IMG/VR virus record: IMGVR_UViG_3300036820_000468
Location: 1-52,508 of that record
Direction: 5' to 3' (one strand)
From: a virus
Length of the DNA stretch: 52,508 nt
The position numbers and the translations under genes are program-made. Positions 22,118 to 33,449 of the stretch are shown here, piece after piece (positions within the stretch are counted from its first letter, which is position 1; each line of letters begins with the position of its first letter). Below the pieces are notes generated by a model, which was given only the letters and a program-made list of their open reading frames with translations, made no database searches and was not told the origin of the DNA.

Positions 22118-22246
22118 AAGTAAGTTTCTGGATTTGTAAGTGTATGCGACCCTACACACACAGTATAGGATACTCCCGGACCCTCTCTTAGTCAATTCGT
22201 GTGTGTGTATAGGGTCGCACTTACTTTTTATCTCAGAAACTTACTT
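22118..22246. repeat. Nested inverted repeat (operator or replication origin candidate)
   Basis: Outer arms AAGTAAGTTTCTG (22118-22130) and CAGAAACTTACTT (22234-22246) are perfect, 13 bases. Inner arms GTAAGTG-tat-GCGACCCTA-CACACACA (22136-22162) and TGTGTGTG-ta-TAGGGTCG-CACTTAC (22200-22224) match with two small offsets. A third palindrome AGTATAGGATACT lies inside. The region is A/T-rich relative to its surroundings and has repeated ACTTAC words. Confidence 0.8.
22167..22195 (-). promoter_or_regulatory. Sigma70-type promoter for the gene at 21576
   Basis: On the minus strand TTGACT (22195-22190), 17 bases, TATCCT (22172-22167). It lies between the two inner arms of the inverted repeat, so a protein bound to the arms would cover it. 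Confidence 0.65.
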
Positions 22247-23975
22247 ACCGTACAATCTGGAGCTTTTTGCTCGTTTTGCCCGGCTTTTCTTCTGTAGGCG
22301 GATCGGGGAGAGCTATCTCCCACAGCAGACTACCCTTGCGCCGCTCAATATCGAAGAAGCCGTCTTCGACCTCACGCCCTTTCATAGTCAAACGAGCCCG
22401 TGCTTTGCGTTCGTCCTTAGCCATCATAATCGTCGTATCGACGCACGCCTGTCCTCCTAAGGTCCCCGCACCAGCATCGAAAGGATCGGTAGATCCCCAT
22501 TTTCCCTTACCCTTGGAAGCGTGATCAAGCATTAAAATGGGCACTTTATAACGGCGCGAAAGGTCCCAAATCGGTTGAAAAACACGGTACTCAGCCCGGA
22601 AGGCGCTCCCTTTTGTGCTCACCTGGCCAAAGAATGCAGCGACCGTATCGATGCAGATAAGCCGCGGGCGCTTGCTTTGTTTGACCCACTGTTCGATCTC
22701 TTCAAGGCCGCCTTGACCCGAGATCGGCCACTCGATTGCCATGCGCAGCGCGTCAGGGACATCACCCGCGCCCCAGAGCGCTCGGACGCGCTCCTGCAGC
22801 CGACGCGGGGAATCCTCGAGCGCCAGGTACAGCACGTCGCCCTGCTGCGAATCAAAACTCTGCGGATGGTCGGCGTAGGCGTACATCGAAATCGAGGACG
22901 GGAAGAGTGGCTTGCCCGCAGCGACGGCCAACGCGCACTGCAACGTGAGAAACGACTTCCCGGTCTTTGGCTTACCAAACAACTGCGTGGTGCCGTCGAC
23001 GATGAAGCCTCTGATCGCGTATCCAAGCGTTCCAAGATCTGCACGCATGAGTTCGGGGGCTGAAAAGGTCGTGATTGGCCCCGGCTCTTGTGTCGGCGAA
23101 CTCGTCGAGCTAGCGTACCCGCTAGAACGCCCTGCTTGTTGATTTTTTGTAATCGAGAGCCAAATCTTCTGCACCTGGGCCATATCCATCGGCGGGGTAT
23201 TACACGCGTTCCAGTTGACGAACTGACGCCAGCACTCGTTCCACTCCGTTTCGTCCGGGTGAGCAAAGAGCAAGCGACCGAGATACTTGGTCGCCATATC
23301 GTCGCGTTCACCCTCAACAACGCCCCCGAGGGCATCCTCCCAGGGCCGCGATGCCGGCGACGCAAGTTCCCCGACGGTCGTACCCCCGCCTCGCACTGCG
23401 GCGATCCGCTCGAGCACGAAGTCGGGCAGCGGGGCGATGCCCTCTTCGGGCTCCCGCTCCCAGACATAGCTCACGCCGTCGGGATGCGGCGAGGGCGGCG
23501 CGAGCACGTAGTTACCCTCACCGCGCAGCTCGACGAGGTCCCCGAAGAGCTTGACGCCGGGCAGCGCAGCGGGTTTGCCGTCAGTTCCAAGCGGCGGCCG
23601 AAAATAAAAATGACGGCCCTTTTTTGCCCGGGCCGTCGCTGTTGGAATGTTTCGGAGCGCTTCAATGAAGGCGTCGGCTTGCGGTGAACTCAGTTTCCCG
23701 ATACGATCGTCGTCGATAACGACCGCGTTGGAGATGCGCCCACAGACGATGGCTATACCACCGGTTGGGGCTTGAGCCGCCCACTGCTCCAATATATCGT
23801 CTCCGACACGTTGTTCTTGAAGGGCTTTCCAGGAATCGAGCGCCGGTCGTTTCCAATCTTTTCGAGGAGCGGTCGTGCCGGCGAGCACGGGCATCGTAGA
23901 AAAACCAAGCGAAGCATAGCGTAAATAATGCGCTGCGATACGATTCACGAACGACTCGTCATAGGTTGGTTGCAC
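22245..23975 (-). CDS. Bifunctional primase-polymerase / RepA-like helicase
   Basis: A replication protein. The N-terminal prim-pol domain has VVIDDD, KKGRHFYFRP and the stretch GDLVELRGEGNYVLAPPS, the landmarks of the bifunctional primase/polymerase family. A helical linker (FVNWNACNTPPMDMAQVQ) leads to an AAA/RecA-type helicase with Walker A LFGKPKTGKSFL, Walker B RLICIDTVAAFF, and MLDHASKGKGKWGSTDPF. The open frame extends to 24047 (TTG). However, a promoter at 24019-24047 would start RNA near 24012, so I take the GTG at 23975 as the first start inside the transcript; ribosome sites are weak. It is transcribed away from the helicase/polymerase operon. It primes and unwinds DNA at phage forks. 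Confidence 0.88.
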   Translation of the reverse strand: MQPTYDESFVNRIAAHYLRYASLGFSTMPVLAGTTAPRKDWKRPALDSWKALQEQRVGDDILEQWAAQAPTGGIAIVCGRISNAVVIDDDRIGKLSSPQADAFIEALRNIPTATARAKKGRHFYFRPPLGTDGKPAALPGVKLFGDLVELRGEGNYVLAPPSPHPDGVSYVWEREPEEGIAPLPDFVLERIAAVRGGGTTVGELASPASRPWEDALGGVVEGERDDMATKYLGRLLFAHPDETEWNECWRQFVNWNACNTPPMDMAQVQKIWLSITKNQQAGRSSGYASSTSSPTQEPGPITTFSAPELMRADLGTLGYAIRGFIVDGTTQLFGKPKTGKSFLTLQCALAVAAGKPLFPSSISMYAYADHPQSFDSQQGDVLYLALEDSPRRLQERVRALWGAGDVPDALRMAIEWPISGQGGLEEIEQWVKQSKRPRLICIDTVAAFFGQVSTKGSAFRAEYRVFQPIWDLSRRYKVPILMLDHASKGKGKWGSTDPFDAGAGTLGGQACVDTTIMMAKDERKARARLTMKGREVEDGFFDIERRKGSLLWEIALPDPPTEEKPGKTSKKLQIVR

Positions 23976-24018
23976 ACTTTCTTGAGGGCGCGGGCGCGTT
24001 TGGGGTGTTCGGGGCACA

Positions 24019-24047
24019 AGTATAAGTCGGCAGGGTCTTGACCGCAA
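24019..24047 (-). promoter_or_regulatory. Sigma70-type promoter for the primase-helicase
   Basis: Minus strand TTGCGG (24047-24042), 17 bases, TATACT (24024-24019). It overlaps the plus-strand promoter at 24038 by ten bases, so the two cannot be occupied together. Confidence 0.65.
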
Positions 24048-24347: not shown

Positions 24348-25114
24348 GTCACGAACCTTTAAGCGACGCGTACAAAAAAGCGTACGACGCAGTAATGAAA
24401 GATTTGCGTGCCTTCGAGTTCGCGCCGATGCCGTTTCCGTTTTACGAGGGTATCCCACCGAAGCCGACCGGTTTTAGCGTCGCCGAACTGCTTGGGCTAT
24501 ACGTTCCAAAGGACGACGATCCGTACGTTTTAGATAAAGACACACAGCTTTTTCTTCCGCGCGATTACGATCGTTACGCTTATTACCCTTCCAGTTCTAG
24601 TTTCCTGAATGCGCTAATGCCGCCGCCGCCTTCGCCGTGCTGCTATCCGCGCTCGTGGCCGAACTATATGCCGTGGTCGTGGCTTATTGACGACGAGCCG
24701 AAAACGGTAGTACCGCCGAAACCGGAAAAGGTAAAGCAAGATACGTGCGTCGTCGGGTACCGCAACTGGCTTTTGCTATTCGTCGGCGAGCAGCAAGTGC
24801 TACTGCGATCAACGGCCGTTCGTCACTACGTTTGGCCGCCGGGCGAAGCCGCAAAAGGTGAGTCGCCAACCGGTAACGGGCTGTACGCGTATACAACTTT
24901 GAAGCGGGCACGGGCCAATGCGTACGGTACCGACGTACTTGGTCATGTCAAACTTTGGGGCACGGTTTACGAACATTCCGACGGTGTCTTTCGTGGCGGG
25001 CGCGGGTATCCCACAAAACTTTTAGTTCACAAAGACGTAAAGAACGCGAAGAACGTCGCGCAGATGCTCGCACGGGCTTACGGATGCGACGTCGTTGTCG
25101 GCTACGACGACTGA
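24344..25114 (+). CDS. Hypothetical protein (256 aa)
   Basis: N-terminal half: helical start (SDAYKKAYDAVMKDLRAF) and a Pro/Tyr/Trp-rich segment (PPPPSPCCYPRSWPNYMPW). C-terminal half (GLYAYTTLKRARANAYGTDV, GHVKLWGTVYEHSDGVFRGG) resembles small phage and actinobacterial proteins with a G-x-V-x2-H core whose role is unknown. ATGA overlap upstream; the helicase starts 20 bases before its end. Confidence 0.65.
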   Translation: MSHEPLSDAYKKAYDAVMKDLRAFEFAPMPFPFYEGIPPKPTGFSVAELLGLYVPKDDDPYVLDKDTQLFLPRDYDRYAYYPSSSSFLNALMPPPPSPCCYPRSWPNYMPWSWLIDDEPKTVVPPKPEKVKQDTCVVGYRNWLLLFVGEQQVLLRSTAVRHYVWPPGEAAKGESPTGNGLYAYTTLKRARANAYGTDVLGHVKLWGTVYEHSDGVFRGGRGYPTKLLVHKDVKNAKNVAQMLARAYGCDVVVGYDD

Positions 25115-27434
25115 GTATTGGGCGCACCAGCTCGCTGACGCCCAACAGTATGCAGCAGTTCCCGGACACTTTCGCTTCTGGGATCCACGAACCGGGAAAA
25201 CGCGCGGCACTGTATTAGAGATCGCGATCTGGATTCAGCAGTTCGGAATCAAAAAGATTCTGATCGTTGCGCCTGTTGACGGCTGCAGCGTTTGGCTCAA
25301 AGAGGACGAGCTTGGACGCTTTGACGCTAGCAAGGTTTGCATCGTCGATCTTTCGACCGACGATCCGATTCGCGAACGCAGCCTCGTTTTGGGGTCGCTC
25401 AAGCAGGTGCGACCAACGATCGTCGTCGTCAACCGCGACGTCATTTTCCGCAAGCGCATCGTTACGAAGACCAAAGAAGTTCCCGACGTCTTCGCCGGCA
25501 CGACGGAGATCAGCAGCACGAAGCATTACGCCGGGCTGCTTGACGCATTGCTCAAATGGGGGCCCGAAGCGGTCGTGCTTGACGAGTGTGTGCCTGCTGG
25601 GACGCTAGTATCAACGCCTTATGGCGACATCCCCATTGAAGCATTAACCGTAGGAGCCGTGGTTTGGGGTTTTGACGAAGCGGCGGGAACACGTATCCCT
25701 GCTATTGTGACACAGACGTTTGCGCAACGATCGACAGCGCCTCTCGTTAAAATAAATGATGTTACGATGACCGCAAATCATCCAGTCTGGATCGGTACTG
25801 AATATATTGCAGCGGGTCGCTTGCAGGATAATGCTTTAGTGTACTACACTACTACAAATGATCCTAGCCAAAAAATGCGCCCGGTGCGCGCGTCGGTTCG
25901 AGTACATCAAGACAACCCGAACACGCAAGTTCTGCTCCAATCGTTGCAGCAATGCTGCAACATTAGAAGGCAAGAACTTTCGGGGTTACATCACTTCGAA
26001 ACGCAACCCGTTTCGAACCCGAGAAGTACAGATAAAGGCTTTAGCTGCGAGCAAAGCTCACGGCTACGCGCATCTAACGGGGGGGAATGGCACGGGGATA
26101 ACTCACCCTCAAGCCTTGCTGCTGGAGCAACTGACCGACTGGGTTCCATCGTTTTGGATTCGTTTAGAAGGGACACTTTACGAGATCGATATAGCGCATC
26201 CAGCGCTACAGATCGCAATAGAGGTAGATGGACAGAGTCACAACGCCAAAACGGTTCGTGCTCGCGACGCTCGCAAGGACAAGCGCTTACGGATGGCGGG
26301 ATGGGTGGTAGTCCGGATTTGGAACAAAGAGATTTTGCGGGACCTTCCCAAAGTTCTCAAGCGATTACAGTCTATAACATTGAAACGTCAACGGGTAACT
26401 ACTTCGCGGGAGGTTTAGCCGTACATAACTGCCACGATTATCGCCGGATCTCCAGCAAACGCGGACAGGCTGCCGAAGCGCTGGCCAAGCGGGCGCGTTT
26501 CCGACGCGGGCTCTCCGGTACGCCCGATCCGCGCGATTACCTGGACTTTTACGGGCAGTATAAGATCGTCGCACCACACGTCTTTGGAACCCGTAAATCC
26601 GATTTCCAAGACCGATACTGCAAAATGTCGTATCATTTTCCGAACAAGGTAGATGGCTACCGGAACGTGGAGGAGCTTCGTGCCAAACTTTTTTCCGTGG
26701 CGTCACGCGTCCGACAAGAAGACTGCTTCGATATGCCCGAAATCCTACCCGACATCTTCGTTGACGTTCCACTCTCACGACTTGCTCGGGAGCTTTATTC
26801 CGAGCTTACCGCTAATTACGTTGCTGAGTTCCTCGGGATCGAACTCGACGCGACCCACCAGCTCTCGCGGCTGACCATCCTGCACCAGCTCGCCCAGGGC
26901 TTCGTACGCGACGAGCAAGGTAACCCCGAATGGGTCTTTGACGGTAAGATCAAAGCCGCGCACGATTACATCGAAGAGATGCTGCGCGCCGATAAGCGTG
27001 TGGTCGTCTACCATCACTATACGCCCGAAGGCGAACGGCTCTTTAACGAGTGCGTCAAAGAGTACGGCGCAAAGCGGGTCGGGCGTTTGAGCGGCGGCGT
27101 CACGCGGCTCGACCGCTCGCCACACCCGTTTGCCGACCGTCCGCAGATGCGCGTCTTCGTTGCCCAAGAGAGCACCGCGCAGTTGGCCATCAGTCTGCGC
27201 GAAGCCGATCACGTGCTCTGGTACTCCTGGGGCCCGGCCGCCGATGTGAACTATCAGGCCCGCCAGCGAATCTTCGATGAGCGCTCCAAGAAGCCGCACG
27301 GGCTCTCATATACGTTCTTACGCAGCGTCAACACAGCGGACGCGTTCATGACCAACACGATCGCGCGCAAGCGCACGGCCTCACAAATGCTACTGGACTT
27401 TGGCTTTGCAAAAGCCGCTAAGGGAGAAGCGTAA
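25095..27434 (+). CDS. SF2 (SNF2-like) helicase interrupted by an intein
   Basis: Motif I WDPRTGKT (res 29-36), motif Ia ILIVAP, motif II formed by VVLDE + CHDYR across the intein (a DECH box), motif III RRGLSGTPDPRDYLDFYG, and C-terminal motifs KRVVVYHHYTPEGE and ADHVLWYSWGPAADVNYQ. With the intein (res 165-445) removed the enzyme is about 498 residues, typical for phage SF2 helicases. TTG start inside the end of the preceding gene; no better start fits the Q-motif region (YWAHQLADAQQYA). The stop is directly followed by the ATG of the polymerase gene. Likely a replication or recombination helicase. Confidence 0.88.
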   Translation: MSATTTEYWAHQLADAQQYAAVPGHFRFWDPRTGKTRGTVLEIAIWIQQFGIKKILIVAPVDGCSVWLKEDELGRFDASKVCIVDLSTDDPIRERSLVLGSLKQVRPTIVVVNRDVIFRKRIVTKTKEVPDVFAGTTEISSTKHYAGLLDALLKWGPEAVVLDECVPAGTLVSTPYGDIPIEALTVGAVVWGFDEAAGTRIPAIVTQTFAQRSTAPLVKINDVTMTANHPVWIGTEYIAAGRLQDNALVYYTTTNDPSQKMRPVRASVRVHQDNPNTQVLLQSLQQCCNIRRQELSGLHHFETQPVSNPRSTDKGFSCEQSSRLRASNGGEWHGDNSPSSLAAGATDRLGSIVLDSFRRDTLRDRYSASSATDRNRGRWTESQRQNGSCSRRSQGQALTDGGMGGSPDLEQRDFAGPSQSSQAITVYNIETSTGNYFAGGLAVHNCHDYRRISSKRGQAAEALAKRARFRRGLSGTPDPRDYLDFYGQYKIVAPHVFGTRKSDFQDRYCKMSYHFPNKVDGYRNVEELRAKLFSVASRVRQEDCFDMPEILPDIFVDVPLSRLARELYSELTANYVAEFLGIELDATHQLSRLTILHQLAQGFVRDEQGNPEWVFDGKIKAAHDYIEEMLRADKRVVVYHHYTPEGERLFNECVKEYGAKRVGRLSGGVTRLDRSPHPFADRPQMRVFVAQESTAQLAISLREADHVLWYSWGPAADVNYQARQRIFDERSKKPHGLSYTFLRSVNTADAFMTNTIARKRTASQMLLDFGFAKAAKGEA
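25587..26429 (+). mobile_element. Intein in the helicase DECH box (281 aa) with an out-of-frame endonuclease gene
   Basis: N-terminal splicing block: Cys1 with CVPAGTLVSTPYGDIPIEAL; block B with MTANHPVWIG. C-terminal blocks: ITVYNIETSTGNYFAGGLAV then His-Asn, followed by Cys+1. It is inserted exactly between Glu and Cys of motif II, so helicase activity needs splicing. The middle 170 codons (about 25860-26365) in the splicing frame are Ser/Arg/Gln-rich and resemble no domain. In the +1 frame the same DNA encodes a recognisable endonuclease (25858-26418). Confidence 0.92.
25858..26418 (+). CDS. EDxHD/Vsr-like homing endonuclease nested in the intein, +1 frame
   Basis: A 186-residue protein read in the +1 frame relative to the helicase. 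N-terminal zinc ribbon C7-x2-C10...C26-x3-C30 (CARCARRFEYIKTTRTRKF), a GGNG/THPQ segment (res 75-85), and a Vsr/DUF559-type nuclease core: TLYEIDIAHP, LQIAIEVDGQSHN, GWVVVRIWNKEIL. Glu/Asp and His positions of this PD-(D/E)xK-related fold are kept. No ribosome site was found before the ATG, so translation may depend on frameshifting or weak initiation. The last 50 bases also encode the intein C-terminal splicing block in the other frame. The domain logic of this frame is much better than that of the splicing frame, so it is real coding sequence. Confidence 0.85.
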   Translation: MILAKKCARCARRFEYIKTTRTRKFCSNRCSNAATLEGKNFRGYITSKRNPFRTREVQIKALAASKAHGYAHLTGGNGTGITHPQALLLEQLTDWVPSFWIRLEGTLYEIDIAHPALQIAIEVDGQSHNAKTVRARDARKDKRLRMAGWVVVRIWNKEILRDLPKVLKRLQSITLKRQRVTTSREV

Positions 27435-29837
27435 ATGCCCCGCACCCACCGTGAAATGGACAGAGTCTTCGCCGAGGTTTTTAATGAGTTGCTCCGTCAG
27501 AACCGGTTGCGCGATTGCAGGGCGCTGATGATCGTCGGGGAAGCGCCTGGTGCCGAGGAAGATCACTACGGCCGCCCGTTCATCGGTAAGGCCGGACAGA
27601 TACTCGCAACGCTCCTAACCGAGAACGGATTCAAACGTGAAGAAATCTATATCACCAACGCGGCCAAATGCCGCCCGCCGAAAAACCGCGACCCCAAAGC
27701 CGCCGAAATCAAAGCGTGCCGCCAGTACCTCAAAGCCGAGATCGAAGCCGTGCAGCCACGCCTTATCGTTTCGCTTGGTAATAACGCCCTCAAAAGTCTC
27801 ACTGGCGAGACAGGGATCTCCAAGCACCGAGGCAGTGTGCTCCCATTGCTTCCGCACTTTGAAGCAAGCGATTGCGGTGTTTTTGTTGCAACTCACCCTG
27901 CGGCAGCGCTTCACTACCCCCATTTCATTGAACAGATCCGAGATGACTTAGGGCTGCTGCGCAAGACGTTCTACGGCGAGTTTGTCACGATCGAGACGCC
28001 GTGGTCGCCCGACCCATGGCCCGATGGCGTACCCAACGGTTATGATGGCTCGCAGATGTGGTCGTTCGACCTTGAAACCAACGCCAGTGAAACACGCGAT
28101 CCGTTCGCAAAGGTCTACCTCTGCGGAATCGACGACGGCCGCAGCATCAAAATGCGTGACGACGCCTTCGGAACGGCAGTTCTCCTTAGGGGCCATACAC
28201 AGCGACTCGTCGGCCACAACAGCTCGCGCTTCGACCGTCTGCATCTGCGTAAGGCAACCGGCATCGACATCAAGTGCGACGACACGATGCTGATGGGCTG
28301 GCTCCTCCACGAAGAATGGGGACCGGCAAAGCGGCTCAACCTCGAATCGCTGTGCGTCGGCGAACTCGGTGTCGAACCGTGGAAGCGCGACGTTACCTGG
28401 GACTGGCGCAAGCCGACGACGATCCCCTGGGACGAGGCCAAGGCCTACTGCGCGCACGACACGCGGCTTACGCGAATGCTCGCCCAGCGCCTGATTCCGC
28501 AACTGCAGGAACAGGAGCTTTATACGTTTTATGATCGGCTGTTGTTGCCGGCGTCGCGCGCACTGGCTGACATGGAAGAGCGCGGCCTGGTCGTCATCGA
28601 CGTAAACGTACGCGCCGCTCGAGCCTTCTACGAAGAGAAAACCGCACGATTTCTCAACGAGGTCAAGCAAGTCGCTGCCAACTACGGACTCGAATCGTTC
28701 AATCCGGGCAGCACGAAGCAAGTCGGTCAACTGCTCTTCGATAAGCTAGGCTACTTCGCCGAAGAGTTCACGCCCACAGGTGCTGCGTCGACTAACGTCG
28801 GCGTCATCAAGACGCTACGCGAGAACCTCGGCGACGAGGCCAGCCCCGTGCTCGACGCGACGCTGCGTTACCGCAAGTGCCGCAACAAAATGCTGGGTAC
28901 CTATATCGCTCACTACGAAAACGAGCGCGACTACTTCGGCCGCTGGTACCCGTGGTATTCACTCACGCAGACCGCCACAGGCCGCACATCGGGGAGCGCG
29001 CAGCAGATTCCGCGTGGCGACACCGAACTGGTTGATCCAGGCGAGCATCCGATGATCCGGCGCTGCGTGGGCGGCGAGCCGGGTGAAGTCATCCTCGACA
29101 TCGATTTTGCGCAGCTCGAGATGCGGGTCGCCGCATCGAGGTACGTCTTTGACGAGCCCAACCTGCGCGCGGCCTTCGAACAGAACCTCGACGTGCATCT
29201 GCTGCTTGCATCGACGATCACAGGCAAACCGCTCGAGCATGTCACCAAAACCGAACGCCAAAACGCCAAGCCGCCAAACTTTCTGTTCCTATACGGCGGC
29301 GAGGAGGATATGTACCGGCGCACGCTGCTCGAAGACCAGGACATCGTCAAGAGCTGGGCGCAGGCCAACCACGAACGCAACGCGTTCTTTGCGCGCTGGT
29401 CGGGACTGCCCGCCGGGCACGTGCGCGTGATCGCCGAGCTGCAGGCCGCTGGCCGAGTGCGAACGCTCTTCGGAACGCTGCGCCGGCTGCCCAACGTCTA
29501 TTCCGAGGAGCGCAAGGTCCGGGTCGAATCGTTCCGCCAGGCCGTCAACGCCAAGGTCCAGACGCCCGCCTGCCACATGGCGCTCATCGGATTGGTCCTG
29601 CTGACCGCTGCGGGCTTCAAGGTGCGTTCGTTTCAGCACGACGCATACTTAGTCGGGATCGAGGACTCCGAGGCCGTCGTGCGCCGCGCAGCGGCCCAAA
29701 TCAAGGAGCTTTTGGAACGGGGCGTGCCTGAGGTCATGGCCTCGACCTTTGGGATCGACTGGGACGTGCCGCTCAAGGTCGACATGAAATGCGGAACGGC
29801 CTGGACGGAAAATGACCGTGGTCACTGGTTGACATAA
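27435..29837 (+). CDS. Uracil-DNA glycosylase-like domain fused to DNA polymerase I (family A)
   Basis: Residues 30-175: family 4/5-type UDG fold with GEAPG (35-39), GRPFIGKAG, ITNAAKCRPP and THPAAALHYP (HPAA 154-157). Only the later pair of the usual four iron-sulfur cysteines (C79, C95) is in place; an N-terminal C-x2-C is missing. Residues 205-360: 3'-5' exonuclease with SFDLETNA (D212, E214), VGHNSSRFD and YCAHDTRLT. Residues 380-800: polymerase with motif A LDIDFAQLEMR, motif B RQNAKPPNFLFLYG, and motif C QHDAYL, where the usual Glu after Asp is Ala. There is no 5' nuclease domain. The main replicative polymerase; the UDG part may recognise or remove uracil in DNA. Confidence 0.93.
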   Translation: MPRTHREMDRVFAEVFNELLRQNRLRDCRALMIVGEAPGAEEDHYGRPFIGKAGQILATLLTENGFKREEIYITNAAKCRPPKNRDPKAAEIKACRQYLKAEIEAVQPRLIVSLGNNALKSLTGETGISKHRGSVLPLLPHFEASDCGVFVATHPAAALHYPHFIEQIRDDLGLLRKTFYGEFVTIETPWSPDPWPDGVPNGYDGSQMWSFDLETNASETRDPFAKVYLCGIDDGRSIKMRDDAFGTAVLLRGHTQRLVGHNSSRFDRLHLRKATGIDIKCDDTMLMGWLLHEEWGPAKRLNLESLCVGELGVEPWKRDVTWDWRKPTTIPWDEAKAYCAHDTRLTRMLAQRLIPQLQEQELYTFYDRLLLPASRALADMEERGLVVIDVNVRAARAFYEEKTARFLNEVKQVAANYGLESFNPGSTKQVGQLLFDKLGYFAEEFTPTGAASTNVGVIKTLRENLGDEASPVLDATLRYRKCRNKMLGTYIAHYENERDYFGRWYPWYSLTQTATGRTSGSAQQIPRGDTELVDPGEHPMIRRCVGGEPGEVILDIDFAQLEMRVAASRYVFDEPNLRAAFEQNLDVHLLLASTITGKPLEHVTKTERQNAKPPNFLFLYGGEEDMYRRTLLEDQDIVKSWAQANHERNAFFARWSGLPAGHVRVIAELQAAGRVRTLFGTLRRLPNVYSEERKVRVESFRQAVNAKVQTPACHMALIGLVLLTAAGFKVRSFQHDAYLVGIEDSEAVVRRAAAQIKELLERGVPEVMASTFGIDWDVPLKVDMKCGTAWTENDRGHWLT

Positions 29838-29865: not shown

Positions 29866-29928
29866 ATGCAACCCTCACCTGTTTCCGACGACGTCCTCCG
29901 CTATTGCGGGGGCACTCCGCTTTTATGA
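29866..29928 (+). CDS. Possible leaderless mini-ORF (20 aa)
   Basis: MQPSPVSDDVLRYCGGTPLL. The ATG lies at or next to the predicted RNA start of the promoter at 29829, and the TGA overlaps the nuclease start (ATGA). It may serve to load ribosomes for the next gene. Very tentative. Confidence 0.25.
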   Translation: MQPSPVSDDVLRYCGGTPLL

Positions 29929-30929
29929 GCGACCGCATGATCGAGCCTATCGCGGTCCACCCGCTCCTCGACACTTCGATGACCAAGCTCGACACGTGGT
30001 CGCGTTGCGATCGCCGCTTTTACTATCGGTACGTGCTCGGGCTCAAACCAATCGCCGTCGATTGGAAGATGCAATGGGGCTCGCTCTGGCATCGCGTCGC
30101 ACAGGTTTTTTACGGAAGACTCAAAGAGGGCGCGCACGTCGATACCGACGCGGCGTTCTTTAGCGCGCAGACCGAAGCCGAGCAGTGCGAATTGATTGAG
30201 AATCAGTTCCATGGCAATAGCGAGATCACGCTCACCGATCAGCAACGTGAAGAACTCTGGCAGACGTTCCTGTACTATATGGATCAGACCGGGCGCCACG
30301 ACGCGTGGGACGAAATAGTCGCCGTCGAGCAGCCCGTCTATTTAACCGTCAACTACGCCGGCACGCCGATTCTGCGCATCCGCTCTACGCTCGATATGCT
30401 CGTTTGGGGGATGCATGAAGGCAAACGCCGTTTGATCCCCGTCGATCACAAGACGACCGGCAACGTGCAGCAGAACCTGCTCTTTTTGGGGCTCGATCTG
30501 CAGGTGCGGATCTACTCGATGAGCGTGGCGGCGATCTACGGCGAGGACCCGCTCATGTGTTACAACATGATCGCCCGTGAGGTCCCGCCGGGCTTCAGGA
30601 CTCGGCCACTCGAGACGGCTTCGGGCAAGAAGCGCAACGCTGCGACGCTTGAATCGATGCAGAACCCACAGCGTTACCTGCGCCGTGCGTGGCTCTCTTA
30701 CACGCCCGAACAGTACGCGAGTTTTCAACGCACGCTCATCCAAGACGCGACGATCTTACAGAAGGAAGCCGCAAGCGGCGTGTGGCCACGGCGCGTCGTT
30801 AAGATGGGGCCGCTTGCGTGCGACGGCTGTCCATACTTCTCGATCTGTACCGCAGAGCTGGGCGGGCGCACGTTTAACGCCGACTCCGCGCTGCTTACCA
30901 TGAGTTTTACAAAGGACCCGCTTGTATGA
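29925..30929 (+). CDS. RecB/Cas4-family nuclease with Fe-S cluster cysteines
   Basis: A PD-(D/E)xK exonuclease-like protein of 334 residues. N-terminal SMTKLDTWSRCDRRFYYRYV gives the first cysteine (C28); the core has IRSTLDMLVWG and PVDHKTTGN (Asp...Asp-x-Lys); the end has ACDGCPYFSIC with three more cysteines, the one-plus-three pattern of the 4Fe-4S clamp in AddB and Cas4. Q-x-R-I-Y (LQVRIYSMSVAA) is the helix after the active site. It lies between the polymerase and the Sak4-like gene, so probably a recombination or DNA-processing exonuclease. Confidence 0.88.
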   Translation: MSDRMIEPIAVHPLLDTSMTKLDTWSRCDRRFYYRYVLGLKPIAVDWKMQWGSLWHRVAQVFYGRLKEGAHVDTDAAFFSAQTEAEQCELIENQFHGNSEITLTDQQREELWQTFLYYMDQTGRHDAWDEIVAVEQPVYLTVNYAGTPILRIRSTLDMLVWGMHEGKRRLIPVDHKTTGNVQQNLLFLGLDLQVRIYSMSVAAIYGEDPLMCYNMIAREVPPGFRTRPLETASGKKRNAATLESMQNPQRYLRRAWLSYTPEQYASFQRTLIQDATILQKEAASGVWPRRVVKMGPLACDGCPYFSICTAELGGRTFNADSALLTMSFTKDPLV

Positions 30930-31129
30930 ACGATCAAGAAGCCTTAAATGGAATCACCGTAAACATTACCTCCGCCGGGATTCGGGTTGAGTGTGTACAT
31001 AGACTTCGTCCATGGGCGCTCTCCTGGCTCATTAAAATCCTTACTGTGTCGTTGCATATCTTCCGTTACCTCAACATGACTGGGACGGCACTCGCTATCC
31101 CTAGTACGGAACAGGAGAAGCCTCTGTGA
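30926..31129 (+). CDS. Small hypothetical protein (67 aa)
   Basis: MNDQEALNGITVNITSAGIR, then a hydrophobic/amphipathic stretch (LRPWALSWLIKILTVSLHIF). ATGA overlap with the nuclease gene and a GTGA overlap with the next gene. Not recognised. Its end carries the AGGAG ribosome site of the permuted ATPase gene. Confidence 0.55.
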   Translation: MNDQEALNGITVNITSAGIRVECVHRLRPWALSWLIKILTVSLHIFRYLNMTGTALAIPSTEQEKPL

Positions 31130-31890
31130 TCGTTTGTCACCTTGATGTCGACGGCGGCGCCGGGTCGATTATCGACCTCGTTCGTGCCGGTCGCGTTGTC
31201 AGCTACGACGCCAACACCTTTGAGAAGGCCGAAAAGATCTATTGGGCACTCGCCAACGGCTCGATTAAGGCCGACCTCGTTGTCGTCGACGCGCTCTCGA
31301 CGTTGCTCACCGCGACGATCCAAGCCATCACGCTCGACGAGATCGGCAAGATCAATCCGGGGGCGGGCCAGACCGTATGGTCGATGCGCAAGAAGTCGCG
31401 TACGCATCAGGATATGTGGAACGTCATCAACTTCAACATGCAGTGGCTCATCACGGTCATCCGCAATCTGCCGATTCCCTCGATCTTTACGGTACACGAA
31501 GCGGAGCGCACGGACCCGACGGCACAGGAAGGCTCGGTCAATGAGGAACGGAATATGCCCAAGCTCACGCCCAAGGTACTCCTGCATCTCATGGCTCTCT
31601 CGGATCTGGTTATGCGAATCTACAAAGCGCCGTTACCGACGACGATCAACGGGCAGACCTACGTACCCGACGTTCCAATCCTGCAACTCGACAACACCGC
31701 CAGTGCGTATACGGGTTTGCGGCTGACACCCGACGCGATGGATACGACCCCACCGTACATCGCACTGCCGAAAGGGACGTGCGGCCTCGGGCTGCTCCAT
31801 CAGGCGCTGGGCCATTTACCCAAAGCGATGACCGTCTACGGCTTTCCAAAGGTCGGCAAGACCGTCTTTAGCACAACGCTTCCTACATAG
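31126..31890 (+). CDS. Circularly permuted Sak4/RecA-like single-strand annealing ATPase
   Basis: A 254-residue P-loop protein whose motif order is rotated. It begins with what is normally strand 2 (VIVCHLDVDGGAGSIIDL), runs through Walker B (LVVVDALSTL, res 51-60), HQDMWNVINFNMQW, the sensor-like SIFTVHEAERTD and the C-terminal strands. It then ends with the segment normally at the N-terminus: GHLPKAMTVYGFPKVGKTVF, Walker A GFPKVGKT at 239-246, eight residues before the stop. Joining the end (STTLPT) to the start (VIVCHLD) recreates the usual Sak4 order without gap. GTG start with AGGAG nine bases upstream. Neighbours (RecB nuclease, OB-fold protein) fit a recombination module. Confidence 0.85.
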   Translation: MIVCHLDVDGGAGSIIDLVRAGRVVSYDANTFEKAEKIYWALANGSIKADLVVVDALSTLLTATIQAITLDEIGKINPGAGQTVWSMRKKSRTHQDMWNVINFNMQWLITVIRNLPIPSIFTVHEAERTDPTAQEGSVNEERNMPKLTPKVLLHLMALSDLVMRIYKAPLPTTINGQTYVPDVPILQLDNTASAYTGLRLTPDAMDTTPPYIALPKGTCGLGLLHQALGHLPKAMTVYGFPKVGKTVFSTTLPT

Positions 31891-31903
31891 AGGTTACTGG
31901 TAT

Positions 31904-32251
31904 ATGGTACCGTTCGTAGAACTCACTTTCACGGCGTTCCAAGAACGCCTTACCGAACTATCATTGCCGCTTTGGAAAGTCGCGCGGCTCTACCAATGGT
32001 ACAAAGTTGATGTTTGCGCGGGGGCGCATAACGCTCGTATAACGCTTAACGATACGCTCTTCCGTGCCGATCAGCGTTGTGAACAGCTTGAGGCGGAGAT
32101 AACGCAGTTACAAGGCGACCTTAGTGAAATACGTGCTGCGGTTCAGGGTTACGACCCGGTGAAAGCGTTCGAGCGTGACAACCCGCCGGTCAAACCTCGA
32201 GTTCGTAAAACCCCCGTACGCAAGGTGCAGAAAAGGAAGCGCAAACGATGA
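31904..32251 (+). CDS. Coiled-coil protein with basic tail (115 aa)
   Basis: A helical protein: QERLTELSLPLWKVARLYQW, a heptad-like stretch RADQRCEQLEAEITQLQGDL, and a very basic end (KPRVRKTPVRKVQKRKRKR). Probably binds nucleic acid. AGAGG lies about 11 bases upstream; ATGA overlap with the next gene. No family assigned. Confidence 0.65.
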   Translation: MVPFVELTFTAFQERLTELSLPLWKVARLYQWYKVDVCAGAHNARITLNDTLFRADQRCEQLEAEITQLQGDLSEIRAAVQGYDPVKAFERDNPPVKPRVRKTPVRKVQKRKRKR

Positions 32252-32499
32252 ACGATTCCACCGGCCTGGGGCCGAAGATCAAAAGCTACGATGCGGCACG
32301 GCTCGAGGGCGATCAGCAGCCCGACCTGATCGTTCAAGAGATGCCGTTTGGCGACAACACACTTGAGTTCATTCAAGAAGACGAGTCGGTCGGCGAGAAC
32401 GATCCACCCCGTTACATACGCATCTACATCGATGGGCGCAATGTCGCGCAACTCATCGAAATCTTAAACCACTTCAGTAACCGTTACAAGGATAGGTAA
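32248..32499 (+). CDS. Small acidic hypothetical protein (83 aa)
   Basis: MNDSTGLGPKIKSYDAARLE..., with a central acidic loop (IQEDESVGENDPP) and a C-terminal helix (AQLIEILNHFSNRYKDR). Sits between recombination genes and may act with the OB-fold protein that follows one base later. Not recognised. Confidence 0.65.
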   Translation: MNDSTGLGPKIKSYDAARLEGDQQPDLIVQEMPFGDNTLEFIQEDESVGENDPPRYIRIYIDGRNVAQLIEILNHFSNRYKDR

Positions 32500-32500
32500 T

Positions 32501-33112
32501 ATGTATCAGCAACCCAACGAGAGCTGGCGCCTTAGTTCGCTCGCTCGCGGTACGACCCCCGAAGGCGACTACGTCGGCGTCATCAAGTCTATGGAACCCG
32601 GTTCCACGAAAAACGGCGATCCGCAAATCAAGTTCACCGTGGCGCTGCTCGGCCCGTCAACGGGCAAGACGCACACGTGGTGGGTCACCTGCACCCGCGA
32701 AGCGTGCTTCCGATTCTTCGACGATCTCATAAACTTAGGGATCGATCCGGACTTCGATCCGGGACCGCCCGTCGACTCAGCGGGGCAAAACCGCTGGATC
32801 GGGCTCTTCACCCCTGGTCTGCTCAACAAGGCCGTGGGCCTCACGATCACCAAGCGCGGCGATTTCTCGAACACCTCGATGACCAGCTTTGTGCCGCTAG
32901 GCCCTGACGGCCAGCCCGTCGCGATGCCCGGAGCCGTGACTCCTCCGCCGGCACCCGCTACGTCGCCGTTCCTGGCCCCTAGTGCCCCGGCAGCGGCACC
33001 GGTGGTCGCTGCGGCACCCTTCCCGGCTGCGGCCGCTCCTTTGCCTACGCAAGCCGCCCCAGCGGCTGCCGTGAACGTCGGCGCCGCGACCGACCTGTTC
33101 GCACAGGGATAG
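32501..33112 (+). CDS. OB-fold single-stranded-DNA-binding-like protein (DUF669-like)
   Basis: Residues 1-140: SSLARGTTPEGDYVGVIKSM, QIKFTVALLGPSTGKTHTWW, CFRFFDDLINLGIDPDF and AVGLTITKRGDFSNTSM form the strand pattern of DUF669-type proteins, which accompany Sak4-like recombinases in many phages. Residues 145-195 are a Pro/Ala-rich flexible linker, ending ATDLFAQG, similar in layout to an SSB tail though not acidic. Inferred role: coating ssDNA during replication and recombination. Confidence 0.65.
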   Translation: MYQQPNESWRLSSLARGTTPEGDYVGVIKSMEPGSTKNGDPQIKFTVALLGPSTGKTHTWWVTCTREACFRFFDDLINLGIDPDFDPGPPVDSAGQNRWIGLFTPGLLNKAVGLTITKRGDFSNTSMTSFVPLGPDGQPVAMPGAVTPPPAPATSPFLAPSAPAAAPVVAAAPFPAAAAPLPTQAAPAAAVNVGAATDLFAQG

Positions 33113-33113
33113 C

Positions 33114-33449
33114 GTGCCCGAGTCGCGCCTTCAGCGCCAAGCGCAAGTCTACGGCGAAGGGCGCGGCGCGTATGCTCTCAATCAGTGGGGGACAGCGCTT
33201 TCGGGCAGCGGTGTCCCCGACAACCTCTGGTGTTACCGTGGGCGGTTTATCGCCTTTGAGTTCAAGCACCAGGGCAAAGACCTCCATGTGATTCCGACCA
33301 TCGACGACGATCGGTTCGTCGAGCGGGCGCAAGCAATGCACCTGCGCCGCGTTCGTAAGGCGGGGGGGATCGCGTATGCTGTCAATACCTTGGGTGCCGT
33401 TATGTGGATACTCAATCTCATCGACCGGGAGATCGACCGTGCCAAGTAA
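33114..33449 (+). CDS. VRR-NUC-like PD-(D/E)xK nuclease (putative junction resolvase)
   Basis: A 111-residue protein: RLQRQAQVYGEGRGAYALNQ, GVPDNLWCYRGRFIAFEFKH (PD followed by E-x-K) and AQAMHLRRVRKAGGIAYAVN (the conserved Q-x3-L/H-x10-G-G-x-A-Y). This is the compact core of VRR-NUC/Holliday-junction-resolvase-like nucleases. The final Lys of ExK is present (EFK). GTG start one base after the preceding stop. Likely processes branched DNA before packaging. Confidence 0.8.
   Translation: MPESRLQRQAQVYGEGRGAYALNQWGTALSGSGVPDNLWCYRGRFIAFEFKHQGKDLHVIPTIDDDRFVERAQAMHLRRVRKAGGIAYAVNTLGAVMWILNLIDREIDRAK

Follow-up and report, generated by a model that had tools for sequence, protein, structure and literature searches.

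Among the RecA-fold ATPases, the Sak4 proteins (PHROG_124; Pfam AAA_24) usually carry Walker A near the N-terminus, followed by strand beta2 and then by Walker B. Purified Sak4 of HK620 depends on ATP both to bind and to anneal DNA, and its own single-stranded DNA-binding protein, SSB, stimulates it (PMC5928155); in the solved Sak4-52A (PDB code 8RC5) Lys41 and Thr42 lie at the nucleotide, which is also reached from the neighbouring subunit by Lys229, Arg231 and His232 (PMC11846896). Circular permutation of a P-loop protein has been described for a few GTPases, such as the YRG family with the motif order G4-G5-G1-G2-G3 and cpRAS with the order G3-G4-G5-G1-G2, and only some cut points were considered possible (PMC2430557). 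The gene considered here occupies positions 31126 to 31890 of the viral record IMGVR_UViG_3300036820_000468, a stretch of 52,508 nucleotides which was analysed at its full length and is called the window in the following. With a probability estimated at roughly 82%, it encodes a naturally circularly permuted, working Sak4, designated cpSak4. A preliminary description, made by reading this DNA, had already claimed the permutation, which is now borne out by its presence in two independent contigs as well as by the rotated profile matches, the structure prediction and the gene context; its statement that no permuted Sak4 was known agrees with the literature searched, outside which many subscription papers lie and in which no permuted Sak4, RecA, Rad51 or ATPase core was found.

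The reading frame of cpSak4 opens with GTG at 31126, closes with TAG at 31888-31890, and yields a protein in which beta2, Walker B and Walker A follow each other in this order. The same order occurs in a 246-residue protein from a second viral contig, IMGVR_UViG_3300037116_000250 (L001). Both Walker motifs are present, but the usual Sak4 succession of Walker A, beta2 and Walker B is not that of cpSak4, and for this reason the protein is classed as a Sak4-derived permuted variant rather than as an ordinary member of the family. Only eight residues separate Walker A (GFPKVGKT) from the stop codon, the C-terminal end reading YGFPKVGKTVFSTTLPT. Since an in-frame stop lies only seven codons upstream of the GTG, cpSak4 has no in-frame N-terminal Walker A. 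A six-frame profile search of 30700-32600 detected no second Sak4 piece, and no other PHROG_124 match occurs in the whole 52,508-base record (G000) or in that of L001. The preliminary description had named as a possible refutation a neighbouring gene supplying an ordinary N-terminus with Walker A. This does not hold, since the only other P-loop of like appearance in the window, GKPKTGKS (22954-22976, minus strand), belongs to a 600-residue primase/helicase-like protein, in which a Walker-B-like strand follows further downstream. The open reading frame (ORF) of the latter protein, at 22245-24047 on the minus strand, is of the RepA type as judged by eye.

Most of the anatomy given in the preliminary description was confirmed, namely the GTG start with its AGGAG site (31113-31117), Walker B around residue 51 (LVVVD, residues 51-55) and Walker A at residues 239-246 just ahead of the stop. 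The statement that the end and the beginning of the chain join without gap or overlap proved accurate to within a residue or so, as judged from the PHROG_124 positions and the alignment; the old connection between alphaA and beta2 counts one residue more than in the canonical proteins L004-L006, and this extra residue coincides with the start methionine. The new linker had been drawn too long, at about residues 205-235, since residues ~212-228 mostly correspond to the helix with which an ordinary Sak4 ends (DPTYEEILETIKGE in the canonical L004, DPTLAKLATAIG in L001), and the junction proper is confined to about residues 229-233. The fit of the chain ends within one residue would also suit a restoration of the order after transcription or translation, by circular RNA, trans-splicing or protein splicing, in which case the working protein would show the usual order. 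However, in each of the two phages the gene possesses a ribosome site and start and stop codons of its own, no Rfam match occurs anywhere in the window, no intein motifs are seen in the 254-residue frame, and no such mechanism is required where both natural ends result from a cut in one and the same loop; a repair of this kind is hardly conceivable.

As it stands, cpSak4 matches PHROG_124 with an E-value of 1.1e-16, which becomes 1.1e-21 upon rotation, the scores increasing from 62.2 to 78.7 bits for cpSak4 and from 91.7 to 106.1 bits for the L001 protein; with Pfam AAA_24, the corresponding values are 31.0 versus 42.9 bits and 42.9 versus 54.8 bits. Along cpSak4, the PHROG_124 positions run from 69 to 214 in the body and then from 45 to 65 at the C-terminus, along the L001 protein from 66 to 257 and then from 46 to 65, and rotation at the linker converts these split matches into a single continuous match including Walker A in both proteins; the alignment of a rotated sequence to Sak4 profiles was a check that the preliminary description had proposed. 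When every cut point was tried against a profile made from 71 canonical Sak4 proteins, the maximum was reached near cut 218 for cpSak4 (63.3 bits versus 41.3 unrotated) and near cut 222 for L001 (71.1 versus 47.3), within residues 210-230 of the permuted proteins, whereas all five canonical controls peaked at their natural ends. A chance match is excluded because none of 1000 trials in which the tail was shuffled before rotation attained the observed rotated score for either protein (maxima of 53.4 and 55.0).

One metagenome contig alone could be wrong, and a misassembly or a read error at 31126 or 31890 could have rotated an ordinary sak4 gene. The search for relatives with the same order, also proposed beforehand, answers this objection. 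The L001 protein, encoded by a gene with its own ribosome site, start and stop, is 55% identical to cpSak4 over residues 1 to 253, and both proteins begin and finish at the same alignment positions. Because the flanking genes of the two phages are equally diverged, with 52% identity for the polymerase and 55% for the exonuclease, the permutation most likely arose before these phages separated, and an assembly error is left with next to no likelihood. The permuted gene might still be a decaying relic, or a form devoid of ATPase function, annealing being left to host or other phage proteins: the known carriers are two only, and the Walker A mutant K30A of the Sak4 PA73 kept partial recombineering activity (PMC5928155), so that a lost ATP binding may be tolerated. 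Nevertheless, the frame is open over its full length in both phages at this degree of divergence, and the C-terminal P-loop, LPKAMTVYGFPKVGKTV, is the most conserved stretch between the two permuted proteins, all 17 residues being identical while 5 of the 17 codons differ synonymously, a pattern expected under selection. Both phages have also kept Walker B and the predicted trans arginine along with the module neighbours, and a relic is improbable.

For structure prediction, AlphaFold2 received an alignment of unaltered translations in which the two permuted proteins were accompanied by the bodies and, in separate unpaired rows, the Walker A fragments of canonical proteins. The native permuted chain was predicted as a compact monomer with a predicted local distance difference test (pLDDT) value of 87.1 and a predicted template modelling score (pTM) of 0.85, with the P-loop strand at residues 234-239 and alphaA at 245-250, and the fold is well supported. 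The best match of the model in VIA-align, which follows the chain order and covers here the post-P-loop part only, was Sak4-52A in 8RC5 (Z 13.7, root-mean-square deviation 2.4, 166 residues aligned), a RecA-core fold in which residues 49-257 pair with residues 1-230 of the model. From this pairing and from the position of Lys41 and Thr42, it follows that the model starts just past the P-loop segment of Sak4 and runs to the Sak4 end. The VIA-align rows for Rad51, RadA and RecA start at 155, 143 and 88, respectively, downstream of their Walker A. Foldseek gave no match against the PDB at E<=0.001, the top rows including RecA, CobU and KaiC, as can occur when an aligner that follows the chain order meets a permuted chain.

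Several observations weigh against a working permuted Sak4. With the two permuted sequences alone, AlphaFold2 attained a pLDDT of 33 and the model failed, and the canonical rows being unpaired, the confidence obtained with them partly mirrors the known fold. Likewise, it is the confidence scores of the model that speak for a P-loop docked beside Walker B. Finally, the permuted order has at least two carriers, the window phage and L001, with no others among the matches listed. It may also be considered that the permuted chain works with its C-terminal P-loop segment swapped into the neighbouring subunit, the ATP site existing only in the oligomer, since this segment is borne by a short junction at the end of the chain and the Sak4 nucleotides already sit between subunits; but the predicted monomer is compact and the junction takes the ordinary route from the C-terminal helix to beta1, which makes such a swap quite improbable. 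That a functional permutation alters the subunit assembly, either by an exchange of the P-loop between neighbours or by a freed N-terminus changing a filament contact, the ATP site being completed only on polymerisation, is regarded as unlikely; if true, it would represent, as far as found, the first natural circular permutation of a RecA/Rad51-type core with a changed assembly.

The RecA-like core of cpSak4 is complete: the chain leads off with beta2, passes Walker B and then the strands and the helix of the C-terminal part, and continues, by way of the junction of about five residues, into the P-loop strand, Walker A and alphaA. In the preferred reading of a working permuted Sak4, the chain ends would meet to build a normal ATP site, with K245 and T246 provided by the C-terminus and D9 and D55 by the N-terminal half, and R199 of the neighbouring subunit would complete this site in trans. 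Residue 9 (aspartate in the window protein, glutamate in L001) occupies, to judge from the sequence, the position of the catalytic acid of the RecA fold and may play this role. Arg199, retained in the L001 alignment, would act from the neighbouring subunit by analogy with Arg231 of Sak4-52A. ATP-bound cpSak4 would then bind single-stranded DNA and anneal the complementary strands produced by the adjacent exonuclease, with the help of the SSB-like protein of the phage; by analogy with the Sak4 of HK620, we infer that cpSak4 most likely anneals single strands in an ATP-dependent manner.

With respect to the known systems, cpSak4 resembles Sak4 in its profile, its predicted RecA-like fold, its Walker A and B motifs, its conserved trans arginine and its exonuclease and probable SSB neighbours, but differs in that beta1, Walker A and alphaA have changed from the N-terminal to the C-terminal end, and in the lack of an N-terminal extension. 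Like the YRG and cpRAS GTPases, it has a P-loop NTPase core that became circularly permuted in nature and whose Walker A has left the N-terminus; unlike them, it belongs to the RecA-type ATPase branch, is cut between alphaA and beta2, and has Walker A as its last motif, and no G4 motif (N/T)KxD for guanine was seen on reading its 254 residues. RecA, Rad51 and RadA share the core fold according to the structure match, but exhibit the normal chain order, additional domains and a strand-exchange activity. If a RecA-type core does tolerate being opened between the Walker A helix and beta2, then the P-loop does not have to lead the chain, and cpSak4 offers a natural test of how far Sak4/Rad51-type filaments depend on the N-terminus. 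In addition, standard profile annotation mainly detects the post-P-loop part, so that a permuted protein could be miscalled as devoid of a P-loop.

The permuted gene could have arisen when an ordinary sak4 was duplicated in tandem or fused head to tail and its outer parts were then trimmed away, at a time before the window phage and L001 separated. The scenario of the preliminary description, in which a tandem duplication was followed by the loss of both outer halves, is plausible in this respect, although the six-frame search of 30700-32600 yielded no remnant or intermediate. In a tree including the rotated permuted proteins, both form a single clade (100/100), tentatively placed beside the type of Microbacterium phage Hamlet (90/75), on a long branch and with an unsure position; Sak4 proteins of the Hamlet type have hardly any residues ahead of beta1. 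Carriers were looked for in viral_contigs by peptide patterns, by a P-loop-plus-stop pattern, by start patterns and by the exonuclease, and in genome_contigs as well, and none besides L001 emerged among the matches listed; some of these scans were tied to one tail length, and the rarity of cpSak4 is not proven. Searching phages and plasmids by tblastn with cpSak4 in native order gave no match. Two candidates were discarded: the genome_contigs match L022, a chance frame of ~70 codons without any Sak4 body, and L021, which runs through stops beyond the end of an exonuclease.

Features of the cpSak4 gene, its product and its neighbourhood in the window
Feature	Position	Strand	Basis
DNA polymerase A fused N-terminally to a uracil-DNA glycosylase domain, first gene of the module	27435..29837	+	profile match
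PD-(D/E)XK exonuclease, usual Sak4 neighbour	29925..30929	+	profile match
67-residue ORF, 4-base overlap with each neighbour, no family match	30926..31129	+	ORF list
Ribosome-binding site AGGAG, 8 bases 5' of the GTG start	31113..31117	+	sequence
cpSak4, circularly permuted Sak4-like RecA-fold ATPase, 254 residues	31126..31890	+	ORF reading, profile, relative, structure model
New N-terminus, strand beta2 and the carboxylate after it, VIVCHLDVDGG	31126..31158	+	alignment, model
Walker B strand LVVVD, residues 51-55	31276..31290	+	sequence, alignment, model
Arg199, aligned with Arg231 of Sak4-52A, putative trans residue	31720..31722	+	alignment
Helix from the former C-terminus of Sak4 (residues 220-228)	31783..31809	+	alignment, model
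Junction of ~5 residues (229-233), old C-terminus to old N-terminus	31810..31824	+	alignment, model
Walker A (P-loop) GFPKVGKT, residues 239-246, now C-terminal	31840..31863	+	sequence, profile, model
Probable SSB-like partner	32501..33112	+	weak below-cutoff DUF669 match, conserved position
Small RecU/Hjc-like nuclease	33114..33449	+	weak match

The order of polymerase, PD-(D/E)XK exonuclease, Sak4, probable SSB and small nuclease is common to the window and L001 and resembles that of canonical Sak4 phages, e.g., Desulfofustis phage LS06-2018-MD02 and Microbacterium phage Stormbreaker8; cpSak4 accordingly lies in an exonuclease and SSB neighbourhood, with a weak assignment for the SSB. The fusion of polymerase A with a uracil-DNA glycosylase is kept in both phages (27435-29837, plus strand, in the window; 2364-4721 in L001). 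An ORF of 64-67 residues also separates the exonuclease from the permuted gene in both (30926-31129 in the window, 5810-6004 in L001), with 4-base overlaps on each side, and no similarity was found between the two small proteins.

Upstream of this module, an SNF2-like helicase ORF (25095-27434) bears a Hint-type intein region (25587-26429), whereas the helicase of L001 is without intein. A 186-residue nuclease of the DUF559/MTES_1575 type (Vsr-like) is encoded in another frame inside this region (25858-26418, plus strand), and a comparable arrangement occurs in Corynebacterium phage phi673, where a gene annotated as a helicase contains, in a different frame, a similar nuclease whose start is offset by 733 bases. 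The nuclease in the helicase intein is possibly an out-of-frame nested homing endonuclease.
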